Part shown: piece by piece, positions 2,501 to 25,329 of the stretch
Numbering within the stretch: the first letter of the stretch is position 1
Layout of the letters: each line of letters opens with the position of its first letter
Made by a program: the position numbers and the translations under genes
Source of the DNA: Clostridium ljungdahlii DSM 13528
Lineage (GTDB): Bacteria; Bacillota; Clostridia; Clostridiales; Clostridiaceae
Length of the DNA stretch: 64,000 nucleotides
Assembly: GCF_000143685.1 (NCBI RefSeq)
Contig: NC_014328.1
Location: 4,092,001 to 4,156,000 of the forward strand
Direction of reading: 5' to 3'
Notes under the pieces: generated by a model
What the model was told of the DNA's origin: nothing
Seen by the model: only the letters and a program-made list of their open reading frames with translations
Databases searched by the model: none

Positions 2501-2848
2501 TTAGTGTTCGCAATGATGATTGCAAAGCTCATTTTTATCTTCTAATTTTCCATCAATATAACTTTGAACAACATCTCTGTATTCTCCAGATGCTCCTTTT
2601 ATTACTTTGAGACCACACTGCTGTAATCCCATCAAAGCTCCTCCACCAATGCCTCCAGTTATTACTAAATCAACATTATGTTTTACTAGTAAATTTGCAA
2701 GGCCCTCATGTTGATGAGCTAACTGAACTGTAGATACTTCTTCAACATTTCCAATTTTATTGTTCTCAACAGTCACAATTACAAAACTCTGACTCATACC
2801 AAAATGTTGGTTAACCATATTTCCGTTATTAGGTAATGCTATTTTCAT
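2501..2848 (-). CDS. NifX/NifB-type dinitrogenase iron-molybdenum cofactor domain protein
   Basis: Single-domain protein (115 residues) of the NifX/NifB C-terminal family (PF02579; the MTH1175/orange-protein group). Members bind Fe-Mo or Mo-Cu-S clusters in an RNase H-like fold. Visible landmarks are MKIALPNNGNMVNQHFGMSQ (the HFG is conserved in the family), VITGGIGGGALMGLQQCG and a His/Cys-rich tail CNHHCEH that may bind metal. The start is the ATG at 2848; an in-frame TTG upstream overlaps the GGAGG ribosome site. It has its own promoter with an operator-like palindrome (2868-2890) related to those of other genes in the cluster. Confidence 0.88.
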   Translation of the reverse strand: MKIALPNNGNMVNQHFGMSQSFVIVTVENNKIGNVEEVSTVQLAHQHEGLANLLVKHNVDLVITGGIGGGALMGLQQCGLKVIKGASGEYRDVVQSYIDGKLEDKNELCNHHCEH

Positions 2849-2867
2849 AAACTTTTCCTCCAATTTT

Positions 2868-2913
2868 TGTCATATGCTATTTTAATTATAGCATTTTTAA
2901 TCTTATTTGCAAT
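2868..2913 (-). promoter_or_regulatory. Promoter with TAGCATATGACA operator upstream of NifX-like gene
   Basis: On the minus strand a perfect TATAAT -10 lies at 2885-2890 with TTGCAA at 2907-2912 as a possible -35 (16-bp spacing). Five bases downstream of the -10 is TAGCATATGACA (2868-2879), a TRGCA-NN-TGNYA imperfect palindrome. The same motif sits at exactly the same 5-base offset in the promoters at 6405, 8432 and 11848. The upstream partner operator found in those three is not seen here. Confidence 0.5.
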
Positions 2914-2936: not shown

Positions 2937-3392
2937 TTAGACGTTATTATCACTCTTCATATTTCTACACCATTTTCCACAGAATTTCGCCTTTTTATTG
3001 CATATAACTTTTTCTGAACCACAAATAGGACAAGTATATCTATCTTGCTCATATTTTATTTCATATACGTTACCGCAATGTAAACACTTAAATTTACAGT
3101 AGGTTGTAGTATAGTTACCTCCATTTATTCTTATGGCATTTCCCTCTGTTAATGCTACAGCTACTTTTTTTCTGGCACTATCTATGATATTTTGAAATGT
3201 TTGCCTGGATACCTGCATTTTTTGAGCACATTCTTCTTGATTTAATTCTTCAATATCCTTTAACCTCATCGCCTCAAGTTCTTCTACCTTTAAAACAATT
3301 TCCTCAATTTCACACTTATGTTTTCCCCAGGGTACAAAATAAGTATTTTCCGGGAAAAACTCTACTCTTCTAAACTTTGTTGGCCTTGGCAT
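2937..3392 (-). CDS. DUF134 (UPF0251) DNA-binding protein with C-terminal zinc ribbon
   Basis: N-terminal ~95 residues match the DUF134 family: PRPTKFRRVEF at the start, then a sigma-like helix-turn-helix (EELNQEECAQKMQVSRQTF). After residue ~100 there are two CxxC pairs (CLHCGNVYE and CPICGSE) and further cysteines (CGKWC), which look like a zinc ribbon or Fe-S site. DUF134 proteins recur next to NifX-like and MinD-ATPase genes in anaerobes and are presumed regulators. The start at 3392 is set by a GGAGGAG site; an upstream in-frame ATG overlaps that site. The 5' end overlaps the Fur-like gene by 31 bases, implying co-transcription. Confidence 0.85.
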   Translation of the reverse strand: MPRPTKFRRVEFFPENTYFVPWGKHKCEIEEIVLKVEELEAMRLKDIEELNQEECAQKMQVSRQTFQNIIDSARKKVAVALTEGNAIRINGGNYTTTYCKFKCLHCGNVYEIKYEQDRYTCPICGSEKVICNKKAKFCGKWCRNMKSDNNV

Positions 3393-3835
3393 TTTAACTC
3401 CTCCCTGCATTTACTACATAATCCTATAAACATAATATTTAAATCATATATTTCTAAATCATTTTCTGCTTCTATTTTTTTATTTAGTCTCAAATAGTCA
3501 AAGTCTAAACTTTGACTATTTATATCTATTATACTATTACAATTAAAACATTTAAAATGCATATGCAGGGGTTTTCTACTAAATATTTTCATTTCATAGT
3601 AACTTATTCCATTGATATTTATTTCTTTTACTATTCCTAATTCATTAAATAATCGTAAAGCTCTATACACTGTAGCAGATCCTATATGCTTTCCTTTTAC
3701 TTTTTCATATATTTCTTTTACATTTAAATGTGTATTACTATCTAAGATGACTTCCAGTATTTTGCTTCTGCCTGCGGTAAATCTATATCCTCTCTTCTCT
3801 ATAATTTTTTTTAAAGACATTAAATCATTATTCAT
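3362..3835 (-). CDS. Fur/PerR-family transcriptional repressor
   Basis: 157 residues with the Fur-family layout. The N-terminal winged helix contains GYRFTAGRSKILEVIL and GSATVYRALRLFNELGIV. The C-terminal dimerisation/metal domain has the H-M-H-F-K-C-x2-C site and a second CSKC pair, giving the four-cysteine structural zinc site. This favours a PerR/Zur-like member over classical Fur, but the sensed metal or oxidant cannot be decided. Start ATG at 3835 behind AAAGGATG. It lies between NifX-like and DUF134 genes and its 3' end overlaps the latter, so it is probably part of the same transcript. Confidence 0.85.
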   Translation of the reverse strand: MNNDLMSLKKIIEKRGYRFTAGRSKILEVILDSNTHLNVKEIYEKVKGKHIGSATVYRALRLFNELGIVKEININGISYYEMKIFSRKPLHMHFKCFNCNSIIDINSQSLDFDYLRLNKKIEAENDLEIYDLNIMFIGLCSKCREELKCQGQQSLEE

Positions 3836-3852: not shown

Positions 3853-4209
3853 TTATTCGTTACAATGTCCTTCGTATTTATGTTCCTCACAAATACTTCC
3901 TGTTGATTTTAATTCACCCTTAATGTATTTTTGTACCATATCATCACATAAACCTTGTGCACCAACTATTACCTTAATTTCATTTTCATTAAATAACTGT
4001 TGTGCTGTTTCTCCCATACCTCCTGCAATAATTACATTTACATTTAACCCTTTTAAAAAAACTGGAAGATATCCTGGTCTATGTCCTGGATTTGCAGTAA
4101 ATTGTCCCTGAGATGCCTTTCCATTCTCTACATCATATATTGTAAAACCTTCACAATGTCCAAAATGTCCACTTACATACTTTCCATCACTTGCAATTGC
4201 TATTTTCAT
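3853..4209 (-). CDS. NifX/NifB-type iron-molybdenum cofactor domain protein
   Basis: Second PF02579 single-domain protein (118 residues). MKIAIASDGKYVSGHFGHCE carries the conserved HFG and a neighbouring cysteine; VIIAGGMGETAQQLF and the tail EEHKYEGHCNE supply further potential ligands. Start ATG at 4209 with AAGGAGG upstream. It sits between the MinD-like ATPase gene (61 bases upstream) and the Fur-like gene (17 bases downstream), the arrangement expected for a cluster-carrier serviced by those ATPases. Confidence 0.87.
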   Translation of the reverse strand: MKIAIASDGKYVSGHFGHCEGFTIYDVENGKASQGQFTANPGHRPGYLPVFLKGLNVNVIIAGGMGETAQQLFNENEIKVIVGAQGLCDDMVQKYIKGELKSTGSICEEHKYEGHCNE

Positions 4210-4269: not shown

Positions 4270-5115
4270 TTAGAAAAAGCTTTTTATAGTATTCCACATA
4301 TCTTCAATAGCTTTTTCTGCCATACTTTCCTTATAAAAAGTTATAGGTTTTAATTCATTTATGGACTTCATAACAGTATCATCATAAGGAATTTTACCTA
4401 CTAACTCTAAATTTTCCAAAAATACAAAGTTTTCTATTTTTTTAGCTATTTCTTCATTTATATCATATTTATTTATACATACCATAGTAAAAATTTCAAA
4501 ATGTTTACATAAATTTACTACTCTTGTTAAATCTTCAAGGCCTGATTTTGTAGGCTCTGTAACGACTAACACTGCATCACTACCTGCTACAGAAGATATT
4601 ACAGGACATCCAATACCAGGTGATCCATCTACTATAGTTAGCTTATTATTACAATTAAACTTTTTCCCATTTTTTCTTAAATAGTTTACTAATTTTCCTG
4701 ACCCATCAGCCCCTATTTTCATTTCTGATCTTGAAATTATTCCTTTATCTAACTCAGTAATAAAAGTATTTGCTACATTTTGATCTTTTAATTCTACAGC
4801 ATTATGAGGACATACTAATGTACATGCACCACAACCTTCACATTCAAATAAATCTACTTTAAAGTCTATTATAGCTTGAAATTTACATACGGTTTCACAT
4901 TTGCCACATTTTTTACACATAGATTCATTTATAGAAGCCTTTTTTCCACCTATAAAACCTTTTTTTTCTATATCTTTTCCTTTATAAAACATGTAAAGAT
5001 TTGGGGCATCTACATCGCAATCTATCCTTATTACATCTTTTGCAATTTCAGCTAATGCTGTTGCAATAGTAGTTTTTCCTGTTCCACCTTTTCCACTTAC
5101 AACTACTAATTCCAA
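4270..5115 (-). CDS. MinD/ParA-type P-loop ATPase with 2[4Fe-4S] ferredoxin insert (second of pair)
   Basis: 281 residues. The deviant Walker A KGGTGKTT is at residues ~9-16. A ferredoxin domain (CKKCGKCETVCKFQAI and CEGCGACTLVCPHNAV) is inserted at ~66-110 after the switch I region, and the DGSPGIGCPVISS switch II motif and VTEPTKSGLEDL follow. This is the architecture of the Orp3/Orp4-type ATPases that accompany orange-protein genes in Desulfovibrio. The TTG start at 5115 is supported by GGGAGGTG; it overlaps the upstream paralogue by 10 bases, showing translational coupling. Inferred role: ATP-driven handling of metal-sulfur clusters. Confidence 0.88.
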   Translation of the reverse strand: MELVVVSGKGGTGKTTIATALAEIAKDVIRIDCDVDAPNLYMFYKGKDIEKKGFIGGKKASINESMCKKCGKCETVCKFQAIIDFKVDLFECEGCGACTLVCPHNAVELKDQNVANTFITELDKGIISRSEMKIGADGSGKLVNYLRKNGKKFNCNNKLTIVDGSPGIGCPVISSVAGSDAVLVVTEPTKSGLEDLTRVVNLCKHFEIFTMVCINKYDINEEIAKKIENFVFLENLELVGKIPYDDTVMKSINELKPITFYKESMAEKAIEDMWNTIKSFF

Positions 5116-5936
5116 GCTAACACCTCCCTTATCTTCTGTGAGAGTTTATCAAATATTGATTTGTGATGTAAATCATCATATAATATTTGGCCCTTAGAAT
5201 AAAGTATTGCTATATCTTTACTATAGTCAATAGTACCTAGCAACATAATCTTTTGTTCTTTACAATATTTTTTTATTATATTGTCCTTTTTATCATCTTT
5301 ATTTATAACTATACCAAAAGGTATGTTATACATTTTTACAAGTTCTACCGCCATTTTTAAATCATGAAGTCCAAACTCTGAAGGTTCTGTAACGAGCACT
5401 GCAGCATCAGCATATTTTAAAGTATTTATTACATTACAGGAAGTTCCAGGTGGACAATCAATTAAATTAACTTCTCCTGACAAATTCTCAAGTAACTCTT
5501 TAATAACAGGTACTGCCATAGGTTCACTTATATTTAAAATTCCTCTACTGCATTTTATATCTCTTGATGTTCCTTTTTCAATTTTCCCTATTTCTCTTTT
5601 ACCATAAGTTACAGCATTGTATTTACATACAATTTCACAAGCACCACAGCCATGACACAACTTTTGGAAAAGGAAAAGATCATCTTTCACTTTTGCAAGG
5701 GCATTAAATTGACATGCATTTGCACAAGCACCACAGGCAGTGCATTTACAAGCATCTATTATTGGATATTCTACTTTCACTGATTTTACTACATCTACTT
5801 TAGGTTTTAAGAACAGAAAACCATTTGGTTCTTCTACATCACAATCTACATAGTTTGCCTTTAAAGCAAGAGCAAGATTAGTAGATACTGTAGTTTTTCC
5901 TGTTCCTCCTTTTCCACTAAGTACTGCTATATTCAC
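5106..5936 (-). CDS. MinD/ParA-type P-loop ATPase with 2[4Fe-4S] ferredoxin insert (first of pair)
   Basis: 276 residues, paralogue of the following gene with the same order: Walker A SGKGGTGKTTVS at residues 7-18, ferredoxin motifs CKCTACGACANACQFNAL and CHGCGACEIVCKYNAV at ~63-110, then LIDCPPGTSCNVINT and VTEPSEFGLHDLK. Such ATPases occur as adjacent pairs and are thought to act as heterodimers. GTG start at 5936 with GGAG 11 bases upstream, somewhat long but the only fit before the Walker motif. It lies 30 bases downstream of a NifX-like gene, whose regulated promoter probably drives the set. Confidence 0.88.
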   Translation of the reverse strand: MNIAVLSGKGGTGKTTVSTNLALALKANYVDCDVEEPNGFLFLKPKVDVVKSVKVEYPIIDACKCTACGACANACQFNALAKVKDDLFLFQKLCHGCGACEIVCKYNAVTYGKREIGKIEKGTSRDIKCSRGILNISEPMAVPVIKELLENLSGEVNLIDCPPGTSCNVINTLKYADAAVLVTEPSEFGLHDLKMAVELVKMYNIPFGIVINKDDKKDNIIKKYCKEQKIMLLGTIDYSKDIAILYSKGQILYDDLHHKSIFDKLSQKIREVLAWN

Positions 5937-5966: not shown

Positions 5967-6320
5967 TCAATGGTGTGCTGGACCAGAAGTTTTTATTTCT
6001 TCAAGTTCATTATTTTTATACTTCTGAAGAACTGAGTTTATATCTATACTACTGCACTTATAAGCTTTGATTCCTGATTTTTCAACAAGCTCAAATGCAT
6101 TAGGACCAAGATTACCCGTAATAATAGCATTTACTTTCTCATCTATTAATTGATTAGATGCAGCAATACCTGCTCCTCCGCTTGAACTTTGACCTTTGTT
6201 TTCTATGATTTTAACTTCTCCACTTTCAGTGTCATGAATTTGAAAGTACTTGCACCTTCCAAACCTACTATCAAGTAAATCTTCAGCATTTTTTCCTGCT
6301 GATGAAATTGCTATTTTCAT
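5967..6320 (-). CDS. NifX/NifB-type iron-molybdenum cofactor domain protein (lead gene of ORP-like operon)
   Basis: Third PF02579 protein (117 residues): MKIAISSAGKNAEDLLDSRF, then GRCKYFQIHD, GGAGIAASNQL and ITGNLGPNAFELVE. The segment DSRFGRC takes the place of the HFG loop, as in orange-protein homologues. A GTG one codon upstream is possible but closer than ideal to the GGAGGG site, so the ATG at 6320 is chosen. It is the first gene of the minus-strand run leading through both MinD-like ATPases, and its promoter at 6405-6456 has the paired-operator module found at mrp and at a flavin reductase. Confidence 0.88.
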   Translation of the reverse strand: MKIAISSAGKNAEDLLDSRFGRCKYFQIHDTESGEVKIIENKGQSSSGGAGIAASNQLIDEKVNAIITGNLGPNAFELVEKSGIKAYKCSSIDINSVLQKYKNNELEEIKTSGPAHH

Positions 6321-6400
6321 CACTATCCCTCCAAATCTTCAATTATACTTTTGCTATAGATATGAACTATATTGTAAAATAAACTCATATCTCAGTTATG

Positions 6401-6460
6401 TTATTGGCATTTGCTATTTTCATAGTATCACTAATATTTATTATTGTCAAATGCCAATAA
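6401..6460 (-). promoter_or_regulatory. Paired-operator promoter, copy A
   Basis: On the minus strand, TTGACA (6445-6450) and TACTAT (6422-6427) are separated by 17 bp. A palindrome-like TGGCATTTGACA (6445-6456, minus reading) covers the -35, and TAGCAAATGCCA (6405-6416) lies 5 bases beyond the -10, over the expected start site. Their centres are 40 bp apart. The whole is bounded by a perfect 13-bp inverted repeat (6401-6413 / 6448-6460). Copies B and C have identical geometry. The module faces the NifX-like gene at 6320. Confidence 0.75.
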
Positions 6461-6480
6461 CCTATATTTTTATAAATTAA

Positions 6481-6849
6481 TTATTTAATATCATTTTTAT
6501 TGTCTAAAGATTCACATTGCTTACATTTAAAACATTTAATAGGATGAACAACATCGTTATTGAGTGACCAATCTCTCATTGCCTTCAATATATCCAACAT
6601 GCTTGTACCCATTTCGCTTAAACTATATTCAACACGGGATGGAATTTCTGCATATACTTTACGTACTATAAGACCATCTTGCTCCATTTCCCTCAATTCC
6701 TGAGTTAAAACTTTAGCACTTATACCTGAGATTTTTCTATTTAACAATCCATAACGTACAGGTCCTTTTATTAATTCTTTTAGTATGAGTATTTTCCACT
6801 TTCCACTTATTAATGATAATGTAGTCTCAATAGGGCATCTATATTTCAT
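6481..6849 (-). CDS. HxlR-family winged-helix transcriptional regulator
   Basis: 122 residues. CPIETTLSLISGKWKILILK is the family signature (conserved Cys near the N-terminus and GKWK), followed by RYGLLNRKISGISAKVLTQELREMEQDGLI of the winged helix. HxlR/YodB members sense electrophiles or redox through the N-terminal cysteine. The tail has an extra CFKCKQC cluster. The ATG at 6849 follows GGGAGG; an upstream in-frame start overlaps that site. It is divergent from the PPOX-type gene at 7033, the usual arrangement for a regulator and its target. The spacer contains GTTACAA...TTGTAAC half-sites (about 6890-6935). Confidence 0.85.
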   Translation of the reverse strand: MKYRCPIETTLSLISGKWKILILKELIKGPVRYGLLNRKISGISAKVLTQELREMEQDGLIVRKVYAEIPSRVEYSLSEMGTSMLDILKAMRDWSLNNDVVHPIKCFKCKQCESLDNKNDIK

Positions 6850-7032
6850 GTAAAAACCTCCCTTCAATGGTTACTTTTATGTTAGTATTGTTACAAAAAA
6901 GTGCATACTTGATAAATATAATAATTGTTGTAACATATTAGTTGAATAATTTATATAAATTTTTAGTAAGTATTTAAATTACTGGAATAAGAATATAAAT
7001 TAATTACAATTTTTAGATGTGAGGTGTATATT

Positions 7033-7422
7033 ATGAACAAACTTGATGAAAACGTAAAAAAATTATTAAACGAATCAAAAGCATGGATTATGTCTACAAT
7101 GGACACAACCCCTAATGCAGTACCTATTCTTTTTAAAAAGATGGATAATGAAGACAACCTTATCCTTTTCGATGTTTTTATGAAAAAGTCCATTGAAAAT
7201 ATTAAAAAGAATTCACAAATTGCAATTACTATATACAATGACGAAACATTGGAAGGATATCAATTGAAAGGTACAGCAACATATTCAATTGATTCAAAGC
7301 TTTTAGAAGAAGGAAATTCAATAACATCTAAAATAAACCTAACAACCAAAGGTGCTGTCATTGTAAATGTAAAAGAAACATTCATTTTAACTCCTGGTCC
7401 TAATAATGGGCATATTCTCTAA
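7033..7422 (+). CDS. Pyridoxamine 5'-phosphate oxidase-like FMN-binding protein
   Basis: 129 residues with the split-barrel PPOX fold: LLNESKAWIMSTMDTTPNAV at the start, NLILFDVFMKKSIENIKKNS in the middle and IAITIYNDETLEGYQLKGTA later. This class binds FMN or F420 and performs small redox reactions; the substrate is unknown. The start is the ATG at 7033 because the upstream GTG lies inside the GAGGTG ribosome site. Divergent from an HxlR regulator, which probably controls it. Confidence 0.8.
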   Translation: MNKLDENVKKLLNESKAWIMSTMDTTPNAVPILFKKMDNEDNLILFDVFMKKSIENIKKNSQIAITIYNDETLEGYQLKGTATYSIDSKLLEEGNSITSKINLTTKGAVIVNVKETFILTPGPNNGHIL

Positions 7423-7519
7423 TGCCTTTTACTAAAATAGATTTATTCTCAAATACCCATAACTCCCTTTAAACTATTGTGTTTTAAATTACCCCCATCA
7501 GAATATACTTAAAAAATCT

Positions 7520-7546
7520 ACCCGTAACTACAAAACGGTTACGGGT
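7520..7546 (-). terminator. Terminator of the mrp gene
   Basis: Perfect 9-bp stem (ACCCGTAAC, 7520-7528, with GTTACGGGT, 7538-7546). Read on the minus strand it is followed by TAGATTTTTT, so it terminates the mrp transcript 30 bases past its stop codon. Confidence 0.75.
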
Positions 7547-7576
7547 AATTTATAATTCATTTATAAGTATTTGTCT

Positions 7577-8407
7577 TTATTTGTCTAAACTCTTCATTAC
7601 GTTATCAACGATAGGATAAAAAACCTTTTCAAGGTCTTCATCTTCATTTTTATATGTAGGATCTGATAAATTACCTACGCTATTTAAAACAGGAATTTCT
7701 CCTAAAAGCTTCAAATTCATTTCTTCTAAAAACTTAGTTGTGCTTTCTCCATTAAATAGTTTTATTTTTTTACTACAATCCGGGCAAGTTATATAGCTCA
7801 TATTTTCAATAACACCTAATACATCAATATTAATTGCCCTTGCCATATTTACAGCTTTTGAAACTATCATTGAAACTAGATCCTGGGGAACAGATACCAT
7901 AACTATTCCATTTATAGGAATAGACTGCATAACTGTCAGTGCAACATCACTTGTTCCTGGAGGCATATCAATAACTAAATAATCAAGTTCTCCCCATAGT
8001 ACATCTGTCCAAAATTGTTTAACTACGCCCCCAATCATCGGTCCTCTCCAAATGACAGGATCATTTTCATTGTCCACTAATAAGTTTAAAGACATAACCT
8101 TTATGCCATCATCTGTATCTACAGGATGCATTAGTTCTCCATCTGAAATAACTTTTTTATCCTTTAGTCCAACAAGCCTTGGTACACTTGGCCCTGTTAT
8201 ATCTGCATCTAAGATACCTGTGCTATATCCCAGTTCCTTTAAACGTTTTGCAATAAGAACTGAAATTGAAGATTTCCCTACTCCACCCTTTCCACTCATA
8301 ACGCCAATAATTTTTTTCACTTTGTTTAAAGGATTATTTTCAATCATACATTTCTGCTTATCCTTATCACATCCCCCATTAGATGGGCATGAATTACATT
8401 CTGACAT
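7577..8407 (-). CDS. mrp: Mrp/ApbC (NBP35-type) Fe-S carrier ATPase
   Basis: About 276 residues. An N-terminal cysteine-rich leader (MSECNSCPSNGGCDKDKQKC) is followed by the P-loop SGKGGVGKSS, ILDADITGPSVPRL, DMPPGTSDVALT and the C-terminal CPDC metal-bridging motif (YITCPDCSKK). These proteins carry [4Fe-4S] clusters to apo-targets. In Desulfovibrio an Mrp gene accompanies the orange protein. The ATG at 8407 has AGGAG upstream; an earlier in-frame start at 8437 lies inside the regulatory module and is rejected. Its promoter carries operator module copy B, linking it to the NifX/MinD operon. Confidence 0.92.
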   Translation of the reverse strand: MSECNSCPSNGGCDKDKQKCMIENNPLNKVKKIIGVMSGKGGVGKSSISVLIAKRLKELGYSTGILDADITGPSVPRLVGLKDKKVISDGELMHPVDTDDGIKVMSLNLLVDNENDPVIWRGPMIGGVVKQFWTDVLWGELDYLVIDMPPGTSDVALTVMQSIPINGIVMVSVPQDLVSMIVSKAVNMARAINIDVLGVIENMSYITCPDCSKKIKLFNGESTTKFLEEMNLKLLGEIPVLNSVGNLSDPTYKNEDEDLEKVFYPIVDNVMKSLDK

Positions 8408-8429
8408 GAAATCATCTCCTAAATTTGTA

Positions 8430-8485
8430 ATTAGCATTTGCTACTTATATAATAACTCCATTTATAATTATTATCAAATGCCAAT
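8430..8485 (-). promoter_or_regulatory. Paired-operator promoter, copy B (mrp)
   Basis: On the minus strand TTGATA (8472-8477) and TATTAT (8449-8454) have a 17-bp spacer. TGGCATTTGATA (8472-8483) overlaps the -35 and the perfect palindrome TAGCAAATGCTA (8432-8443) sits 5 bases after the -10; centres are 40 bp apart. An 11-bp inverted repeat (one mismatch) bounds it. Same layout as copies A and C. Confidence 0.75.
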
Positions 8486-8518
8486 TATAATAATCATTTT
8501 TCTATTTAAAACAAAATA

Positions 8519-8740
8519 TCAATCACAGCGTTTTTTCCGCAATAATTCTTCTAACTCATTAATGCGTTTATTTATTTGTTCTATCTCAGCTTCATATTTT
8601 CCTACTGTAGCACTAGATAAATGAATGCCTCTCTGTCCTAGTACAAGTGATCTTTCTTCTTCTATATCTTCAAGAGAGTCTTTAAGTTCTGCAAGTTTTT
8701 TTTCTAATTCAGGAATACTCATTTTTTCAAAATCATACAT
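8519..8740 (-). CDS. Small coiled-coil protein of unknown function
   Basis: 73 residues, almost entirely heptad-like charged helix (MSIPELEKKLAELKDSLEDIE, then KYEAEIEQINKRINELEELL), ending KKRCD with a single cysteine. GIHLSSATVGKYE forms a conserved-looking turn between two helices, so it probably folds as a helical hairpin. GGAGTG is 9 bases before the ATG. It is encoded just upstream of mrp but is separated from it by the regulated promoter. Proteins of this type accompany Mrp and NifX-like genes in other clostridia as far as I recall, but no function is known. Confidence 0.65.
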   Translation of the reverse strand: MYDFEKMSIPELEKKLAELKDSLEDIEEERSLVLGQRGIHLSSATVGKYEAEIEQINKRINELEELLRKKRCD

Positions 8741-8833
8741 TATAATCTACACTCCATTTCTTTTTATTACTCAAATTTCGAATATATAAGATTTTAACAA
8801 TTACGATATAAATGAATTCATAATTCACAGTTC

Positions 8834-8858
8834 ACAATGCACAATTATGGTGCATTGT
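8834..8858. terminator. Stem-loop downstream of LysR gene
   Basis: Perfect 9-bp stem (ACAATGCAC with GTGCATTGT) and a 7-nt loop, located 17 bases past the stop of the LysR gene. There is no T-tract, and the surrounding AATTCATAATTCACAG repeats resemble common clostridial intergenic filler. A weak terminator or RNA-end structure. Confidence 0.4.
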
Positions 8859-8874
8859 AAATTCATTAATATCT

Positions 8875-9750
8875 TTACTTCTTTATTGTACATAAATCTA
8901 TAAAACGTTTCATTATCTTTGTTAAATATTTATTTTTGTGATATATGATTTTAAACTTTCTCTTAAATTTAATACCTTTAACAGGTATTTCGCAAAGGGT
9001 ACCAGAGGATAATTCATTTATCACTGAATTTCTAGAAATAACTGACACTCCTAATCCTTCTGCAACTGCAATTTTTATAGTATCAGTATTGTTACATATC
9101 CAGGAAGCCTTCCATGTTAATTCATTTTCTATCATTTTATCTTCAAATGTCTTACGAGTTCCACTTCCTTTTTCACGAATAATAAATTTTTCTTTTTGAA
9201 GTTCGCAAGGTTCCACATAAGGAAGTTTTGCAAATCTGTGGCAAGCTCCACAAATAAGTATCAATTCATCATCCATAAATGGTTTGTTTAAAATATCCAA
9301 ATTTGTCGTTTCTCCTTCTACAAGACCTATGTCAATTTCATCGTGAAGAAGCATTTTTTCAATTTCTGTAGTATTTTCTTCATACACTTGTATATCAGTT
9401 TCTGGATATACTTTTTGAAAATGTGAAACAAATTTAGGTAAAACATAAGCTCCAACAGTAACACTTGCACCAATGCGTATAGCACCATTTTTATACAAAG
9501 TTTTCATGTCATTTTCTAATTCTGTATTTAATTTGATAATATACCTAGCATAACTCATCAGTTTTTCTCCTGCCTGAGTCAGATAAAGTTTTCTTGAAAG
9601 CCGTTCAAAAAGTCGTATACCATAGTGACTCTCAAGTTCAGAAATTGCCTGACTAACTGCTGACTGAGACATAAAAAGTGTTTCAGAAGCCTTAGTCATA
9701 TTCATTTTGTCACATACAGCAACAAATATTTTAAAATGTCTTAAAGTCAT
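8875..9750 (-). CDS. LysR-family transcriptional regulator (CysL/YeiE-like)
   Basis: 291 residues. N-terminal helix-turn-helix MTLRHFKIFVAVCDKMNMTK with SQSAVSQAISELE; effector domain typical of LysR with EKGSGTRKTFED. The YeiE/CysL-type subgroup is commonly divergent from YeiH genes, as here (9858, plus strand), and responds to sulfur or sulfite status. The ATG at 9750 follows AAGGAG; an upstream in-frame start is less well placed. A second LysR of the same subgroup is at 19242. Confidence 0.85.
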   Translation of the reverse strand: MTLRHFKIFVAVCDKMNMTKASETLFMSQSAVSQAISELESHYGIRLFERLSRKLYLTQAGEKLMSYARYIIKLNTELENDMKTLYKNGAIRIGASVTVGAYVLPKFVSHFQKVYPETDIQVYEENTTEIEKMLLHDEIDIGLVEGETTNLDILNKPFMDDELILICGACHRFAKLPYVEPCELQKEKFIIREKGSGTRKTFEDKMIENELTWKASWICNNTDTIKIAVAEGLGVSVISRNSVINELSSGTLCEIPVKGIKFKRKFKIIYHKNKYLTKIMKRFIDLCTIKK

Positions 9751-9857
9751 AATATTCTCCTTACACATTAGTATATACTTATTACATTCATTAAATAATA
9801 ATATTTTACTTATATAATGTCAAGGTGTATTATGAATTGCAGATAGGGGGAAATCTT

Positions 9858-10853
9858 ATGAAAACAATAACTAATAAAGTATCAGGAATTATACTTGCAC
9901 TAATTATAGCTATTCCAGCATGGCTACTTGGAAATGCTTTTCCTATTATAGGAAGCCCTGTGCTTGGAATTTTATTTGGAATGATTTTAGCATTTTGGAA
10001 AAGACCAAACTGTTTTAATGAAGGTATAACCTATACTGCAAAAAAATTACTACAATACTCCATTATCCTTATGGGTTTTGGCATGAATCTTTTTAATGTT
10101 TTTAAAATAGGAAAACAAACAATTCTTTTAATGACTTTCACACTAACAGCAGCATTTATTACTGCTTATATTGTAGGTAAATTATTAAAGATAAATGGGA
10201 AAACGGCAACCTTAATTGGCGTTGGTTCTTCCATATGTGGTGGTTCAGCTATTGCAGCAACAGCTCCTGTTATTAACGCAAATGAACAAGAAGTTGCCCA
10301 TTCTATATCAACCATATTTCTTTTTAATGCCATTGCAGCCTTTTTATTTCCATTTCTCGGGCATTTACTTGGCATGAGTAATCAATGCTTTGGTCTTTGG
10401 GCTGGGACAGCTGTTAATGATACTTCATCTGTAGTAGCTGCTGGCTATTCTTACAGTAATGCAGCAGGTAATCTTGCAGTTATAGTAAAACTTACAAGAA
10501 CACTGGCCATTGTTCCAGTTACATTGGTACTTGCTATTTATACTTCTAAAAAAGAATTAAAAGGTAAAAAGGGATCTTACAGCATTAGCAAAATATTCCC
10601 TTGGTTTGTACTTGGATTTGTAGCTGCCTCTATAATTAACACATTTATTCCTCTGCCAGCTGCACTTACTAATTTTTTATGCGAAGCTGGAAAATTTGTA
10701 ATTGTAATGGCAATGGTGTCTGTAGGATTAAATAGTAATATTGTGGAACTTGTTAAAAATGGTGTAAGACCAATTGTGTTAGGCTTTACATGCTGGGTAG
10801 TTTTAGCATTTATTTCTCTTGGCGTTCAACATTTTATAATGGGTATTTTTTAG
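9858..10853 (+). CDS. YeiH/UPF0324 family putative sulfate/anion exporter
   Basis: 331 residues, about ten predicted transmembrane helices, matching the YeiH family (PF03601). Landmarks are GNAFPIIGSPVLGILFGM, GVGSSICGGSAIAATAPVI and GTAVNDTSSVVAAGY. The start is the ATG at 9858 behind AGGGGG, not the upstream alternative. The family is annotated as putative sulfate exporter; the transported ion is not proven. It is divergent from its LysR regulator and followed by a terminator at 10923. Confidence 0.85.
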   Translation: MKTITNKVSGIILALIIAIPAWLLGNAFPIIGSPVLGILFGMILAFWKRPNCFNEGITYTAKKLLQYSIILMGFGMNLFNVFKIGKQTILLMTFTLTAAFITAYIVGKLLKINGKTATLIGVGSSICGGSAIAATAPVINANEQEVAHSISTIFLFNAIAAFLFPFLGHLLGMSNQCFGLWAGTAVNDTSSVVAAGYSYSNAAGNLAVIVKLTRTLAIVPVTLVLAIYTSKKELKGKKGSYSISKIFPWFVLGFVAASIINTFIPLPAALTNFLCEAGKFVIVMAMVSVGLNSNIVELVKNGVRPIVLGFTCWVVLAFISLGVQHFIMGIF

Positions 10854-10922
10854 AGAAAGAAATTTGATTAACATTGATGTCTAAAACATCATAATAAAAA
10901 TCTTTAAAAGCAATTTTTTAGA

Positions 10923-10974
10923 GACAATGTACAACTTTTTAGTAAAAAACTTTTGCTAAAAAGTTGTATATTGT
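10923..10974 (+). terminator. Terminator-like 20-bp hairpin after yeiH-like gene
   Basis: Arms 10923-10942 and 10955-10974 pair over 20 bp with a single G-T wobble, 70 bases after the stop codon. The plus strand continues CTTTAATATTTT, so termination is plausible. It also separates yeiH from the decayed gene on the opposite strand. Confidence 0.6.
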
Positions 10975-10998
10975 CCTTTAATATTTTTAATATTAAAT

Positions 10999-11218
10999 CT
11001 AGATAATTACATTTCCTGTGTTGTTATATAAGAATCTTTTTTTAAATTGAAGTTTCATTTCTTTAATGGATTTTTCTCCTGTACAGTGACACATTTCCAG
11101 TATCAAACAAAATTTTAAATTCATCTACTTCTATGTAAAGTGATACTCCATGTTCATTATATAATTTTGGATCAACACCAGGGTTATTTTCTATGAGAGT
11201 TACTATTTTAAAATTCAT
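10999..11218 (-). pseudogene. Metallo-beta-lactamase-fold protein, internally deleted and frameshifted
   Basis: The minus strand encodes MNFKIVTLIENNPGVDPKLY, then EHGVSLYIEVDEFKILFDTGN: the N-terminus of the MBL-fold family related to dihydropterin-forming/ribofuranosylaminobenzene phosphate synthases. Immediately afterwards the frame changes. The next frame gives CHCTGEKSIKEMKLQFKKRF followed by LYNNTGNVII and a stop, which is the C-terminal end of the same family. The middle (some 150-200 residues, including the HxHxDH zinc site) is missing. This is a remnant left by an internal deletion, not a functional small protein. Confidence 0.75.
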
Positions 11219-11253
11219 TTTAATCACCAACTCATTTAAATTAAAGAAGTAAA

Positions 11254-11745
11254 TTAAAGAAGTTGAATTTTAGAAAAATCAATATCTCCGTTATCTTTAA
11301 TCATTTCTTTATCAGCATGAACATATTCAATTTTTCCTGCAAACATTTCATGTGAACCAGTAACTATAGATCCCTCTACCTTACACTCTATGTTTATAGG
11401 ACAATCTGCTAATAAAGGAGCATTTACCTTTATTCCTTCGTCAACTTTAATATTAAGTTTTGAAAATTTATCTTCATTTCTGCCGCTATGACTACCTAAA
11501 TATTCAAACATTTCTTTTTGTTCTTTTGTAACAATATTTACTACAAAAACACCTGTTTCTTTTATCATTTTATAAGAATATCTAGATGGAACAATACCTA
11601 CCATAATCATTGGTGGGTCATAACTGCAGTTACAACAGTATGCTACTGCTAGTGCATTATTCTTACCATTTACATCCCTACAAGAAACTAATATTTTGGG
11701 CATAGGTTGAAGACATGACTTCATATTTCCTTGAATTTTTTCCAT
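11254..11745 (-). CDS. Flavin reductase-like FMN-binding protein
   Basis: 163 residues of the flavin reductase domain family (PF01613): PKILVSCRDVNGKNNALAVA, DPPMIMVGIVPSRYSYKMI and ETGVFVVNI with PLLADCPINIECKVEG. It binds FMN and resembles the flavoredoxin type of anaerobes. Conserved cysteines at CCNCSY may be redox or metal-related. ATG at 11745 after GGAGGAATGTT. Its promoter contains operator module copy C, shared with the NifX-like gene and mrp, so it is likely in the same regulon. Confidence 0.85.
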   Translation of the reverse strand: MEKIQGNMKSCLQPMPKILVSCRDVNGKNNALAVAYCCNCSYDPPMIMVGIVPSRYSYKMIKETGVFVVNIVTKEQKEMFEYLGSHSGRNEDKFSKLNIKVDEGIKVNAPLLADCPINIECKVEGSIVTGSHEMFAGKIEYVHADKEMIKDNGDIDFSKIQLL

Positions 11746-11845
11746 AATAACATTCCTCCATTATTATTTATAGTGTTGCCAAAAATTTTAATGTAATTTC
11801 TGGCTTAATTTTTTTATTTGTAACAAATTTAATTACTGTTTATAT

Positions 11846-11901
11846 ATTGGCATTTGCCATTTTCATAATACATCTATGCATAATTATTGTCAAATGCCAA
11901 T
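11846..11901 (-). promoter_or_regulatory. Paired-operator promoter, copy C (flavin reductase)
   Basis: On the minus strand TTGACA (11888-11893) and TATTAT (11865-11870) are 17 bp apart. TGGCATTTGACA (11888-11899) covers the -35; the perfect palindrome TGGCAAATGCCA (11848-11859) lies 5 bases beyond the -10. Centres are 40 bp apart and an 11-bp perfect inverted repeat bounds the module. This copy shows the operator palindrome most clearly. Confidence 0.78.
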
Positions 11902-14322: not shown

Positions 14323-15084
14323 TTATTCTGGATATATATATTGATTTTGTGGCTTTTGAGCTGGATCTACATATTCAACTCTTATAACAGGAGTACTGGA
14401 CTTTTCACCGTTAATATTTTCAGTTTCTACATCAATTTTTCCTGTGATTTTAACCCATTTGTTATTTTTTAATGTAGAAGCTTTATTCCAATTACATACT
14501 AATCCTGTAACCTCTGTATCAGCAGCACAGCAAACCATCATTAATCTTGCAATTAGAAATTTATCTTTAGAATTTGTACCATCCCTAAACACAAAACCTG
14601 TTATAACTATATCTTTACCTTTATATTTGTTTGGATTATTATAACAAATATCATCTGCTATATGAGTAAAATTTTTTCCATCAACAACTAAAATATTATC
14701 TTTTGGAGTATCTTTCTGAATACTTTTCGATTGAGTTTTAGAAATTGAGATGTTTTTACTTATGCTATTTTTCATTACTACTTCACCCTTTTTTGAAATA
14801 AGTTCATCATTTAATCCCTTCGGATTTATGTAAATACCTAAAAACAATGGAACTAAAAACACACAAAAATAAACCTTTCTTTTATTCATTTGTGTAGGTA
14901 TAAAAAGTCTTCTTAGTTGAAAAACAGTGAGTATAAGAAAAATAATGAAAGAAAAACGAACATATTTTATCATTTTAGGATTAAGATAAAGATAAATTTT
15001 CCCGGATGAAAGTAAGTTGTAAACATAATAAGTAAAGCATATAAGTATTACAAACCATTTAAATTCACTTTTGTTCAATTTCAC
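14323..15084 (-). CDS. TIGR03943/DUF1980 family permease partner protein
   Basis: 253 residues: an N-terminal region with about four hydrophobic helices (FKWFVILICFTYYVYNLL and later segments to residue ~85), a linker, then a soluble domain with NNPNKYKGKDIVITGFVFRD and ARLMMVCCAADTEVTGLVC. The CC pair and the nearby Cys are conserved in the family and may bind metal. Such proteins are encoded next to PF03773 permeases, as here: its start overlaps the permease stop by 4 bases. It has a paralogue at 18463. Transport of a metal or small ligand is inferred from context only. Confidence 0.8.
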   Translation of the reverse strand: MKLNKSEFKWFVILICFTYYVYNLLSSGKIYLYLNPKMIKYVRFSFIIFLILTVFQLRRLFIPTQMNKRKVYFCVFLVPLFLGIYINPKGLNDELISKKGEVVMKNSISKNISISKTQSKSIQKDTPKDNILVVDGKNFTHIADDICYNNPNKYKGKDIVITGFVFRDGTNSKDKFLIARLMMVCCAADTEVTGLVCNWNKASTLKNNKWVKITGKIDVETENINGEKSSTPVIRVEYVDPAQKPQNQYIYPE

Positions 15085-16202
15085 AATATCAATCCCCCAT
15101 TAAAAGGCAAGTAATTAACTAATGCTCCTATAATAAAACAAACTGTAAAAATTACAAAAATCAGTTTTATTATAAAGCTACTTTTAAAAGTTTCACTTAA
15201 CATAAGTGTATTTTTTATATCAATCATTGGTCCAAATATAAGAAAAGCTATTATAGACCCTGTAGTAAATTGACCAATAAATGTTCTTGCAATAAATGCA
15301 TCAGTTTCAGAGCATACTGCTAATAAAAATGCTAAACCTATCATAACAAGTATAGAATATATTTTGTCATGTCCAACTAATAAAATATATTTTCTTGGTA
15401 CAACTGTTTGCATTAGTGAAGATAGAAATGCACCAATAATTACAAACTTTCCAACACCATTTAATTCTATATTTGTATGATCCACTACTTCCATAATTGT
15501 TAATCCTATATTATGTTTTTTACCTGAATTATAATGAGAATGTCCACATCCGCATTGACAAGTACTATCATGTTGATGATAATGCCTGTGATGATATTGG
15601 AGACCCATGTCTACTTTTTTTAATACAGAACTATTATCACATATAATGCTAATTACATTACCAATAATCATTGCCCCAATAATACCTAACCCACCGCGCA
15701 TAATAACTATGTAAATATTATTTGAAAATGCGTAGTAAGTTGAAGCAAGTACTACTGGATTTATTATAGGTACGGAAAGCATAAAAGTAATACCTATATG
15801 TAACGGCATACCTTTCTTTATTAATTTTCTTACAACAGGAACAATTGCACAATCACATATAGGAAATACTAATCCTATTAAAGCAGCACTTAATAATCCT
15901 AAAAACTTGTTTTTAGGTATTATCTTAGCTAAAGTTTCTTCTGTAACAAATATTTGAATTATAGATGCCAATATTGTTCCAACCATTATAAAAGGAAATG
16001 CCTCCAAGATTATACTTAAAAAAATTGTTGAAAATCCTTGTAACATTTTATTATCTGTTAAAGATTTAAATTGAATATTAGGCAGTGAAAAATGAAATGA
16101 TGGCATTAATACTGAAATGCTTGAAAACAAAATAGGAAAAATAAGCATAAAAATAATTATTATAAGAAAGTTTTTTCCCAATTTATCATTTTGAGTTATC
16201 AA
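15081..16202 (-). CDS. PF03773 (DUF318) permease with His/Cys-rich loop
   Basis: 373 residues, about eight to ten transmembrane segments. PICDCAIVPVVRKLIKKGMP and FMLSVPIINPVVLASTYYAF are the family hallmarks and repeat in degenerate form in the second half (CSETDAFIARTF, IFGPMIDIKN). Between the halves is a hydrophilic loop with YHHRHYHQHDSTCQCGCGHS, a strong candidate metal-binding sensor or chelator. It forms a pair with the downstream TIGR03943 protein and has a paralogue at 17396. A ZnuA-like gene sits between the pairs, suggesting zinc or a similar metal. Confidence 0.85.
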   Translation of the reverse strand: MITQNDKLGKNFLIIIIFMLIFPILFSSISVLMPSFHFSLPNIQFKSLTDNKMLQGFSTIFLSIILEAFPFIMVGTILASIIQIFVTEETLAKIIPKNKFLGLLSAALIGLVFPICDCAIVPVVRKLIKKGMPLHIGITFMLSVPIINPVVLASTYYAFSNNIYIVIMRGGLGIIGAMIIGNVISIICDNSSVLKKVDMGLQYHHRHYHQHDSTCQCGCGHSHYNSGKKHNIGLTIMEVVDHTNIELNGVGKFVIIGAFLSSLMQTVVPRKYILLVGHDKIYSILVMIGLAFLLAVCSETDAFIARTFIGQFTTGSIIAFLIFGPMIDIKNTLMLSETFKSSFIIKLIFVIFTVCFIIGALVNYLPFNGGLIL

Positions 16203-16277
16203 TTGTACTTTACCTCCCTCTATTACGTTTATACTAAATTATAATATTTATATTAAATGCATAATAGAACAAAAATA

Positions 16278-16312
16278 AGAGTTAGACACTAATTTCTTAG
16301 TTCATAACTCCT
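16278..16312 (-). terminator. Terminator of the ZnuA-like gene
   Basis: Hairpin with interrupted stem (GAGTTA/TAACTC and ACTAA/TTAGT blocks). On the minus strand it is followed by ATTTTTG, 30 bases past the stop at 16342. Confidence 0.6.
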
Positions 16313-16341
16313 ATTTTTAATTTCTTTGAAAATGCCTTAAC

Positions 16342-17271
16342 CTATTTTAAACTATTATATATTAATTCTAAATTGCTCTTCATGCTTTGAATATAATCTT
16401 TATTATCTTCCTTGCTTTCAATTGTATATATCTTTTGTACTTTCGCTCCAACTTCTTTAGCAAGGGTATCTGAAACCTTAGGACTTACCATATCTTCTAC
16501 AAATATAGTTTTTATTTTATTTTGCTTACAGTAATTAATTAACTCTTCCATCTTTTTAGTTGTTGGCTCACCTTCTGCAAATACATCTTCTACACTATTT
16601 TGTTTTAGTCCAAAATCTCTACAAAGATAAGCAAATGCTGCATGACCTGTAACAAAATTTTTATTAGTTACTGTATCAAACTTTTTCTTATAATCATTAT
16701 ATAAACTGTTAAGTTGAGTTGAAAAATCTTTATAATTTTTCTCATAATAATCTTTATTAGATGGATCAGCCTTTACTAAAGCTTCTTTTATGTTTTTTGC
16801 TTCAAATTCCGCACCCTTCAAACTTACCCAAGCGTGAGGATCATTTTGTCCATGTTCCTTAATTTCACCTTCATCAGTATTCTTTATTGACTCAAAACCC
16901 TTTGATGCTTCAACAACAACTAATTGTTTGTTATTTATAACTTTTAGAGACTTGTCCACCCACGACTCCATTCCAAGCCCATTATAAACAAATACTTTAG
17001 CTTTGTTTAAATCTTCAAGATCCTTCGCTTTAGGCTCATATTCATGAGGCTCAACCCCATTTGGAATTACTGTCTTAACTTCTACCTTATCCTTACCTAC
17101 TGCTTCAGCAAATTCTCTCATAGCATTAAAAGAAACTACAACTTGAATTTTTCCGTGAGATTCTTTTTTATCAGCAACCTTATTATTGCTGTTCACACTA
17201 GCATTACCACATGCCGAAAAAGTTACAAGACTACACATTAACATTAAAATTGAGATTATTCTTTTATACAT
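16342..17271 (-). CDS. ZnuA/AdcA-like metal ABC transporter substrate-binding lipoprotein
   Basis: 309 residues. A lipoprotein signal peptide (LMLMCSLVTFSAC, lipobox cysteine at ~21) is followed by the cluster A-I fold. Metal ligands are visible: GVEPHEYEPKAKDLEDL, NDPHAWVSLKGAE, VTGHAAFAYLCRDFGL and VEDMVSP with Asp/Glu. This set is typical of Zn/Mn binding proteins. The ATG at 17271 follows GAGGAGTG; in-frame upstream codons are less well supported. No ABC ATPase or permease of the ZnuBC type is adjacent. Instead two permease/TIGR03943 pairs flank it. Confidence 0.85.
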   Translation of the reverse strand: MYKRIISILMLMCSLVTFSACGNASVNSNNKVADKKESHGKIQVVVSFNAMREFAEAVGKDKVEVKTVIPNGVEPHEYEPKAKDLEDLNKAKVFVYNGLGMESWVDKSLKVINNKQLVVVEASKGFESIKNTDEGEIKEHGQNDPHAWVSLKGAEFEAKNIKEALVKADPSNKDYYEKNYKDFSTQLNSLYNDYKKKFDTVTNKNFVTGHAAFAYLCRDFGLKQNSVEDVFAEGEPTTKKMEELINYCKQNKIKTIFVEDMVSPKVSDTLAKEVGAKVQKIYTIESKEDNKDYIQSMKSNLELIYNSLK

Positions 17272-17296
17272 TTTTTCACTCCTCATATAAAGTTGT

Positions 17297-17349
17297 TGCA
17301 AATAGCTTGCATTTACATATATAATATACATATATACCTAAATTGTCAA
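17297..17349 (-). promoter_or_regulatory. Promoter and TGCAA-N5-TTGCA operator of the ZnuA-like gene
   Basis: Minus strand TTGACA (17344-17349) and TATTAT (17321-17326) with a 17-bp spacer. TGCAAATAGCTTGCA (17297-17311), a 5-bp-arm inverted repeat, lies just after the predicted start site, a good position for a repressor such as Zur. The regulator is not identified. The divergent permease gene at 17396 may be controlled from the same spacer. Confidence 0.55.
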
Positions 17350-17395
17350 CAGCTTCCACATTAGATATTATTTAATAATCAGTAAAGGAGTTAAA

Positions 17396-18460: not shown

Positions 18461-18462
18461 AC

Positions 18463-19230
18463 ATGAATAGTAAAAAATTTAATTTTAACATAGGAGAATT
18501 TACATGGTGTATACTTCTTCTTGCAATTTCATTTTATTTCTATAAATTAGTTTCTTCAAAAAAGATTAATATGTTTATAACTCCTAATATGAGTAAGTAT
18601 GTTACGTTTGCTTCTATAGCTTTGCTGGTTTTGGGAATTTTTCAAATACCTAAAATAATAAGTACTCCAAATGACAAACCAAAGTTTGGCTACTTAATAT
18701 TTGGGATTCCAATAATCATTGGTATTTTAGTGAATCCAGGTGGATTAAATCAACAAATAGCAGATACAAAGGGAATGAATGTAACGCAAAATTCTACTCA
18801 AGCAAACACAAAAGCACTAAGAAAAAACTCTAGTATGACTAAAAATACGGAAATTGTTATGACTGAAAAAAATTTTTTTGCTTTTCTTAATGGAATCAGC
18901 GATGATCCAAATAAATTTAGAAATTGTAAAATAACATTAACCGGTTTTGTTTACAAAAACGATAACATAAAAGCCAATCAATTTGTTATTGCAAGATTGC
19001 TTATGGTATGCTGTGCAGCTGATACACAGACTGTTGGATTCTTATGTAATTACAACGGACAAAATTTAGACAAAAACACATGGGTACAAGTAACAGGAAT
19101 TCTTGATACTACAAATTACATTGATAATAATTCAAAACAAGTTTCTTTAATTCCCCTAATAAAAATTCAAAGTATTAAAAAAGTAGATCCGCCTACTTCA
19201 AAATATATTTACATTAATAGCACTGATTAA
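18463..19230 (+). CDS. TIGR03943/DUF1980 family permease partner, paralogue of the 14323 gene
   Basis: 255 residues. Four hydrophobic helices at the N-terminus (FTWCILLLAISFYFYKLV onwards), a polar linker, then NKFRNCKITLTGFVYKNDN and ARLLMVCCAADTQTVGFLC with the same CC pair. It starts 3 bases after the permease stop, so the two are co-translated. The region from 14.3 to 19.2 kb thus holds two divergent copies of the same pair around a metal-binding lipoprotein. Confidence 0.8.
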   Translation: MNSKKFNFNIGEFTWCILLLAISFYFYKLVSSKKINMFITPNMSKYVTFASIALLVLGIFQIPKIISTPNDKPKFGYLIFGIPIIIGILVNPGGLNQQIADTKGMNVTQNSTQANTKALRKNSSMTKNTEIVMTEKNFFAFLNGISDDPNKFRNCKITLTGFVYKNDNIKANQFVIARLLMVCCAADTQTVGFLCNYNGQNLDKNTWVQVTGILDTTNYIDNNSKQVSLIPLIKIQSIKKVDPPTSKYIYINSTD

Positions 19231-25301: not shown

Positions 25302-25329
25302 ATTATAGCATATGCTAATTATATATCAA
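25302..25329 (-). promoter_or_regulatory. Promoter of DUF1847 gene with TAGCATATGCTA palindrome
   Basis: Minus strand TTGATA (25324-25329) and TATAAT (25302-25307) with a 16-bp spacer. The perfect palindrome TAGCATATGCTA (25306-25317) lies within the spacer and overlaps the first -10 bases. It resembles the TRGCA-NN-TGYYA operators of the ORP-like set but sits at a different offset, so common regulation is only possible. Confidence 0.5.

Follow-up and report, generated by a model that had tools for sequence, protein, structure and literature searches.

The stretch of DNA analysed here (the window; 64,000 bp, bases 4,092,001 to 4,156,000 of the single-contig genome of Clostridium ljungdahlii DSM 13528, NC_014328.1, 4,630,065 bp) carries three copies of a 52-bp promoter module, in which two TGGCA-type palindromes with centres 40 bp apart are arranged around a promoter with a 17-bp spacer. 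Module 1 is followed by a compact run of seven genes on the minus strand, the sixth of which encodes a protein of the DUF134 family (UPF0251; Pfam PF02001), the regulator proposed here. The features of the locus are as follows, with positions counted in the window:

2501..2863, minus strand: NifXc, Nitro_FeMo-Co domain protein (PF02579)
2868..2890, minus strand: half module, TATAAT followed after 5 bp by the operator TAGCATATGACA, without operator 1; precedes NifXc
2937..3392, minus strand: DUF134 protein, proposed regulator (PF02001, 79.5 bits at a cut-off of 27)
3362..3835, minus strand: Fur-family protein (PF01475), rival candidate regulator, not favoured
3853..4209, minus strand: NifXb, Nitro_FeMo-Co domain protein (PF02579) matching the C-terminal (Di-Nase) part of MrpORP
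4270..5115, minus strand: MinD2, MinD-type ATPase with inserted ferredoxin motifs (PF01656, Fer4)
5106..5936, minus strand: MinD1, MinD-type ATPase with inserted ferredoxin motifs (PF10609, Fer4)
5967..6323, minus strand: NifXa (PF02579), first gene behind module 1
6405..6456, minus strand: module 1, with operator 1 at 6445-6456, the -35 hexamer TTGACA at 6445-6450, the -10 hexamer TACTAT at 6422-6427 and operator 2 at 6405-6416; leads NifXa-MinD1-MinD2-NifXb-FurL-DUF134-NifXc, orthologues of which have the same upstream layout
7577..8407, minus strand: Mrp Fe-S carrier (PF10609, 298 bits)
8432..8483, minus strand: module 2, with operator 1 at 8472-8483 containing TTGATA, the -10 hexamer TATTAT and operator 2 at 8432-8443; leads mrp
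11254..11745, minus strand: flavin reductase-like protein (PF01613), putative target of module 3
11848..11899, minus strand: module 3, with operator 1 at 11888-11899, the -10 hexamer TATTAT and operator 2 at 11848-11859; leads the flavin reductase gene
25306..25317, no strand assigned: candidate single operator, perfect TAGCATATGCTA, overlapping a promoter-like stretch before a DUF1847 gene

Operator 1 reads TGGCATTTGACA or TGGCATTTGATA, and its final six bases form the -35 hexamer. The consensus of the module runs from TGGCATTTGA(C/T)A over 17 bp, TACTAT or TATTAT, and a further 5 bp to operator 2, which reads TAGCAAATGCCA, TAGCAAATGCTA or TGGCAAATGCCA (consensus T(A/G)GCAAATGC(C/T)A); in module 3, the half-sites of operator 2 (TGGCAAATGCCA) are perfect. 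Operator distance (40 bp, centre to centre) and promoter spacer (17 bp) are the same in 3/3 modules, in agreement with the initial annotation of this stretch, which had reported three promoters of identical geometry. Its description of them as identical base for base holds for the geometry and not for the sequences (TTGATA and TAGCAAATGCTA are found in the mrp copy), and the palindrome it placed over the -35 is present as an operator, though an imperfect one with the -35 as its inner half. All three of its promoters are real, and two further sites had been missed, i.e., the half module at 2868-2890 and the perfect TAGCATATGCTA at 25306-25317.

A whole-genome scan for the module with up to three mismatches returned exactly three matches, all of them in the window and within 5.5 kb of each other, while the reversed pattern returned none in the same scan of 4,630,065 bp. 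Lone palindromes with up to two mismatches were found 29 times in the window against 15.4 expected and 1465 times per strand in the genome, and single-palindrome scans were discarded as a regulon finder for being too frequent in both; a lone palindrome being weak evidence, the weight was placed on the pairing. A perfect match to TGGCATATGCCA, the sole one among the matches listed, lies at C1:352510 inside a 387-codon open reading frame. The pattern of a -10, 5 bp and an operator occurs in the 64-kb window at the three modules and at the fourth promoter before NifXc, and nowhere else; elsewhere, for instance in G145, NifXc is preceded by complete modules whose operator 2 is that of this half module. 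The promoters of the window read as sigma-70 type. Mobile or repeat DNA was rejected as the origin of the module because the middles vary while promoter elements and operators are kept, and an RNA hairpin was not favoured because, by reasoning, the transcript would hold operator 2 only.

Across 206 genomes of the same family, the module was found with up to three mismatches in 85 (reversed control: 6/206), and a gapped pattern matched 76/206 (control: 0/206) as well as 18/291 genomes of a sample of the class (control: 2/291). Copies were counted as promoter-like if a -10-like TANNNT followed 16-18 bp after the -35; matches lacking such a hexamer were dropped before counting (8/109 in the family, 4/14 outside), and three sites readable as a promoter in both orientations were counted twice, here and in the module readings below. 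This yielded 101 promoter-like copies in 72/206 family genomes, 98 of them with the 17-bp spacer, and promoter-like modules in ten further genomes of the class sample. The gapped pattern and the spacing script allow cores of 45-53 bp only (operator spacing of 33-41 bp), 53 bp being at the edge; with a wider pattern (40-58 bp, exact half-sites), promoter-like copies appeared, among the matches listed, only at 49, 51, 52, and 53 bp. When all contigs were scanned, the promoter-like copies among the matches listed were all in records named Clostridia or Bacillota, and many chance matches were listed outside Clostridia. On the Arthrobacter-type contigs L047, L054, L065, L068, and L138, TGGCATTTG ends a 47-bp hairpin-like inverted repeat that is unrelated to the module.

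For the genes behind the modules, 93 regions were fetched, covering 71 of the 72 family module genomes (the window's own was left out) and the ten outside, and these gave 107 module readings. The first recognisable gene was Mrp in 48 readings, NifXa in 28, NifXc in nine, NifXb in six, the DUF134 gene in four (G160, G161, G162, and G183), a Fur-like gene and a flavin reductase gene in two each, MinD2 in one, and none or another gene in seven. Conservation upstream of orthologues, on which the initial annotation had staked its proposal, was thereby borne out, and its suggestion of a shared regulon under a probable dimeric repressor gains support as a real and conserved system, as far as it can be predicted from sequence.

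The DUF134 gene co-occurs with the module across genomes. PF02001 scored over its cut-off in 70/72 family genomes with promoter-like modules versus 47/134 without (Fisher 2e-20), and outside the family in 10/10 module genomes versus 94/268 without a module (4e-5); without dropping any rows, DUF134 was present in 70/76 family genomes and 11/14 outside genomes with a pattern match. It lies within 12 kb of 93/107 module readings. The two family exceptions are G067, where only a broken Mrp remnant remains behind the module, and G048, a genome of 93% completeness with the module on a 16.5-kb contig. Since co-occurrence alone cannot part a regulator from a target, DUF134 genes elsewhere were examined.

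For this, 28 DUF134 loci outside the family were picked by DUF134 score, with no DNA motif used. The commonest perfect 10-bp palindromes shared among them were GACATATGTC in nine loci (expected 0.07) and TGCATATGCA in seven (expected 0.1). In a set of 154 DUF134 genes with sufficient upstream DNA, a perfect CATATG-centred palindrome, 10 bp or longer, occurred within 150 bp upstream of 19 (shuffle mean 0.83), compared with 4/152 in the control window at -450 to -300, 0/149 at -750 to -600, and 0/155 at +150 to +300. In 13 cases, paired sites flank a promoter before the DUF134 gene, with TTGACA in the first site and TANNNT between the two. Long perfect palindromes, e.g., GTTATGAATATATATTCATAAC, were also observed before DUF134 genes of an archaeal phylum (L371, L372, L375, L377, L379, L393, L394, and L398), where they sit 10-12 bp before the start codon and have a core unlike the bacterial CATATG.

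The outer bases of the CATATG-centred palindromes vary with the recognition helix of the DUF134 protein. In this helix, which reads SR-Q-TFQ-N in the window, the third and seventh letters differ between proteins. GTGCATATGCAC accompanies SRGT helices, in clostridial families as well as in a Psychrilyobacter metagenome-assembled genome (MAG); the RTT class (SRTT, ARTT) is paired with TGACATATGTC(A/G), SRQTFGR with GAGCATATGCTT, and SRPTFSR with GAACATATGTTC, and T(G/A)GCATATG is found with both SRQTFQN, in the window's family, and SRQTFGN, in four genomes from the phylum to which a Desulfovibrionaceae MAG belongs. The half-site predicted from an SRQTFxN helix, T(G/A)GCAT or T(G/A)GCAA, is present in the window, where SRQTFQN stands beside TGGCAT/TAGCAA; the same pairing precedes the DUF134 genes of L448, L450, L454, and L460, which fall into a single cluster at 80% identity. 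After clustering at this identity, 29 proteins remained, for which the mutual information between helix and operator was 1.87 bits, a value reached in 0/20,000 permutations. In a held-out set of 80 further DUF134 loci, 15 had a palindrome and 14 of these a helix from which a site could be predicted; the prediction was matched on at least one half in 12/14 (RTT class 9/10, SRGT 1/1, SRPT 2/2 under a loose rule, SRQTFGR 0/1).

The DUF134 protein of the window has 151 amino acids with a helix-turn-helix at about residues 39-76, the recognition helix SRQTFQNI, and a Cys-rich C-terminus. A profile of 34 DUF134 proteins matched the DNA-binding domain of Bacillus subtilis DeoR over 38 residues (7bhy, chain 7bhy_A, E-value 2.2e-5; 8r7y, E-value 0.0005); the match spans residues 39-76 and aligns the recognition helix with SRPTVSRLLQYAKEK of DeoR, whereas the window protein as a single query matched no DeoR structure. 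According to the accessible text of PMC11229326, the DeoR operator overlaps the promoter, holds TTGAACA, which is contacted, in one half and ACATATGTTCAA in the other, and is bound as two half-operators by a tetramer; ACATATGTTCAA is close to the GAACATATGTTC of SRPTFSR DUF134 proteins. By analogy, the paired operators of the modules may be modelled on this arrangement. DeoR, a member of the SorC family, thus resembles DUF134 in its helix-turn-helix and its two-half operator overlapping the promoter, but its whole operator, as given there, measures 39 bp, while in the DUF134 modules the two operators flank the promoter at a distance of 40 bp. The sugar-phosphate effector-binding domain of DeoR did not appear in Pfam scans of DUF134 proteins, including that of the window, and DUF134 was therefore not filed as a SorC member despite its DeoR-type helix-turn-helix. 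Its helix-turn-helix also matches Sigma70_r4_2 weakly (E-value 0.0005, below the cut-off), and in the RTT-class operator TTGACATATGTCAA the -35 hexamer forms an inverted repeat; DUF134 is nevertheless not a sigma factor, as Pfam scans gave no other sigma domain and its operators are palindromic.

At an E-value of 1e-8 or better, DUF134 was found in 161/249 genomes of the window's phylum, 58/100 of the phylum of Methanococcoides vulcani, and 44/148 of the phylum of the Desulfovibrionaceae MAG. Among 235 DUF134 genes, 12 encode at least 200 amino acids; ten of the 11 long proteins scanned are fused to a NifX-like PF02579 domain, the twelfth (L420) being a near copy of a scanned one. The fusions measure 220-255 amino acids (L226, L229, L419, L443, L446, L453, L456, L462, L472, and L525) and come from the window's class, its phylum, and the phylum of the Desulfovibrionaceae MAG. 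Pfam and NCBIfam assign no function to the family, which here gains a predicted operator, target set, and helix-to-base rule. Literature searches for DUF134, UPF0251, COG1342, and PF02001, with most subscription journals outside their reach, found no functional paper; in the accessible text of PMC5886521, a UPF0251 gene is merely listed beside a mutation, and the accessible main text of a promoter-motif paper on C. autoethanogenum (PMC6873888) contains none of the terms TGGCA, palindrom-, NifX, or Mrp.

From the computed layout, the conservation, the co-occurrence with DUF134, and the helix-operator covariation we infer, with good confidence, that DUF134 binds the modules and the half module and autorepresses an ORP-like cofactor regulon. 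A DUF134 dimer would sit on each palindrome via the DeoR-like helix-turn-helix; on operator 1 it would cover the -35 and on operator 2 the start site, and the promoter would be off. As the operators overlap the -35 and the expected start, a dimer on one of them should be enough to obstruct RNA polymerase. With DUF134 being the sixth gene behind module 1, its product would shut its own operon, so that the system represses itself by negative feedback.

Several results weigh against this reading. No CATATG palindrome was found within 150 bp upstream of 135/154 DUF134 genes under the perfect 10-bp rule and of 65/80 under a looser one, 47 family genomes have DUF134 and no module, and 14/107 module readings lack a DUF134 gene in the surrounding 12 kb. 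The control of the gapped pattern also hit genomes of the class sample (the 2/291 given above), and the class-wide pattern also matched four genomes without a promoter-like -10. The 28 loci are partly dependent on each other, with three from genus g71 and five from genus g98, and one of them, L232, has a module of the window's type. Shared descent of helix and operator inflates the covariation, the SRQTFxN class amounts to two clusters after clustering at 80%, and one of the two sites of L440 (SRQTFGR) misfits its class. In the held-out set, L491 and L527 failed, L528 has a palindrome for which no prediction was made, the rule for the P class is loose, and some loci share a genus among themselves or with the first set. 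Finally, the choice of repression over activation was made from operator position only.

Other factors could read the palindromes. The initial annotation had named the HxlR, Fur-like, and DUF134 proteins of the stretch as candidate regulators, of which DUF134 is supported, HxlR is not, and the Fur-like protein is so only poorly. The Fur-like protein (3362-3835) as regulator, with DUF134 merely as a target, would fit with the shared operon, with a Fur-like gene near 46/107 module readings, and with a module immediately upstream of it in G136 and G100. At an E-value of 1e-25 or better, it was found in 37/206 genomes, including 32 of the 72 family module genomes, to which tblastn of the fetched regions added G007, G111, G128, G133, and G177; part of the resulting 37 matches are fragments or distant paralogues of 35-36% identity. 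Even so, it was not found in 35/72 family and 5/10 outside module genomes, where DUF134 is present in 70/72 and 10/10; DUF134 occurs without a Fur-like gene within 12 kb in 48/107 readings and the opposite case once. The regulator would thus not be encoded wherever the operator is (37/72 in the family, 5/10 outside), as expected of a Fur regulon, and the CATATG operators upstream of DUF134 genes in other groups would be left unexplained, for which reasons this explanation has a very slim chance of being right. Several Fur-like orthologues (e.g., in G138, G143, G129, and L327) were observed to be partial, split over two frames, or interrupted by in-frame stops; in some rows, the same count could result from a stop close to the C-terminal end. 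For the HxlR protein (6481-6867) speaks that its gene adjoins module 1. However, HxlR lies near only 5/107 readings, three in one near relative and two in genomes with copies of 46-48% identity, and module 1 is faced by the 3' end of the gene rather than by its promoter, the divergent PNPOx-like gene at 7024 being the likelier target; its chance of being the regulator is negligible. In the stretch at 6868-7024, HxlR (RrpA/RrpB-like, below the cut-off) and the PNPOx-like gene are divergent neighbours and likely form a separate regulator-target pair. A LysR gene was near 4/107 readings. An unlinked factor might read the palindromes with DUF134 as a conserved member of the regulon only, given that co-occurrence does not distinguish regulator from target and that binding by DUF134 is a prediction. 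Such a factor would have to account for operator bases that track the recognition helix of DUF134 and for palindromes directly ahead of DUF134 genes in clostridial families, the Psychrilyobacter MAG, and the phylum of the Desulfovibrionaceae MAG, and its chance is judged to be slim.

Two further alternatives concern what DUF134 would do at the module. Activation of the promoters, or action in both directions, is compatible with operator positions that were read from sequence only. Against it, the -35 and -10 come close to consensus and are separated by a 17-bp spacer (98/101 family modules) and operator 2 on the expected start suits blocking, which makes activation unlikely, with a small chance remaining. 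The initial annotation had further taken the exact spacing of four helical turns as a sign of looping or cooperative binding, by which two dimers would loop or stack to form a rigid module. The spacing is indeed 40 bp in 96/113 distinct modules, and the tetramer of DeoR, a related helix-turn-helix protein, on two half-operators (PMC11229326, accessible text) offers a precedent. The claim is weakened by spacings of 37 bp in three of the 113 modules, 39 bp in four, and 41 bp in ten, and by the 13 pairs upstream of DUF134 genes in other families, which are 28, 33, 34, 36, 38, 39, or 40 bp apart; a change of at least 3 bp shifts the helical face, and single operators exist before DUF134 genes elsewhere and before NifXc in the window. 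What does not vary across modules is the -35 within operator 1 and the position of operator 2 past the -10. With a range of 28-41 bp, exact looping is not needed; a rigid four-turn module is hence doubtful, and cooperative binding of the paired operators is possible.

Within the locus, translation of mrp more likely starts, as predicted, at the ATG at 8407, which follows AGGAG, than at the first ATG of the open reading frame at 8437, because the latter falls within operator 2. L090 (Clostridium ragsdalei) has the same stretch with protein identities of 90-99%. The perfect TAGCATATGCTA at 25306-25317 lies about 63 bp ahead of the DUF1847 gene in a run of DUF1847, DUF364, and NifXd, and an identical TAGCATATGCTA precedes DUF1847 in 3/7 fetched copies (L326, L346, and L356). 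At 14323-19230, the gene of a zinc-type solute-binding lipoprotein lies between two similar sets of two genes each, one permease-like and one for a membrane protein; the names of these genes were read off the translations by eye.

The orp operons of Desulfovibrio vulgaris, which are regulated by DVU2106, offer the closest comparison for the target genes. Like the window, they encode an Mrp/NBP35 ATPase, a NifX-like Di-Nase domain, and paired ferredoxin motif proteins (PMC6345978, accessible text). Mrp, NifX-like, and MinD/ferredoxin proteins are encoded together in the window, as in an ORP system. The MrpORP fusion is absent from the window, where Mrp reaches 303 bits against an NCBIfam cut-off of 450 and matches the P-loop half only; there, Mrp and Di-Nase are separate genes with sigma-70-type promoters and putative DUF134 operators. 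As the D. vulgaris operons are described as being controlled by sigma-54 and IHF (accessible texts of PMC6345978 and PMC3897727), control in the window looks different.

The regulon (Mrp carrier, two MinD/ferredoxin ATPases, NifX-like proteins, and flavin reductase) probably serves to assemble or carry a metal-sulphur cofactor. The NifX-like fusions of DUF134 and the NifX-like proteins among its main targets point to a cofactor or metal signal, and DUF134 would probably sense that cofactor or its metal via its Cys-rich tail or a NifX-like partner. More tentatively, and with a somewhat less than even chance, DUF134 may be a widespread one-component repressor of bacteria and archaea, with a DeoR-like helix that follows a simple helix-to-base code on CATATG palindromes in bacteria, and with a metal-sulphur cofactor or its precursor as a signal that is received through a NifX-like domain, either fused or on a partner protein encoded in its own regulon.

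Within the searches made, the DUF134 family had not earlier been given the role predicted here, that of a one-component repressor with palindromic operators. The predicted site and the helix-to-base rule make the family testable in many organisms. The NifX-like and ORP-type targets are hard to place in the physiology of an anaerobe, and the signal that derepresses them would reveal their product; if this more tentative reading is true, the modules would be a read-out of the ORP-type cofactor pool in an anaerobe.

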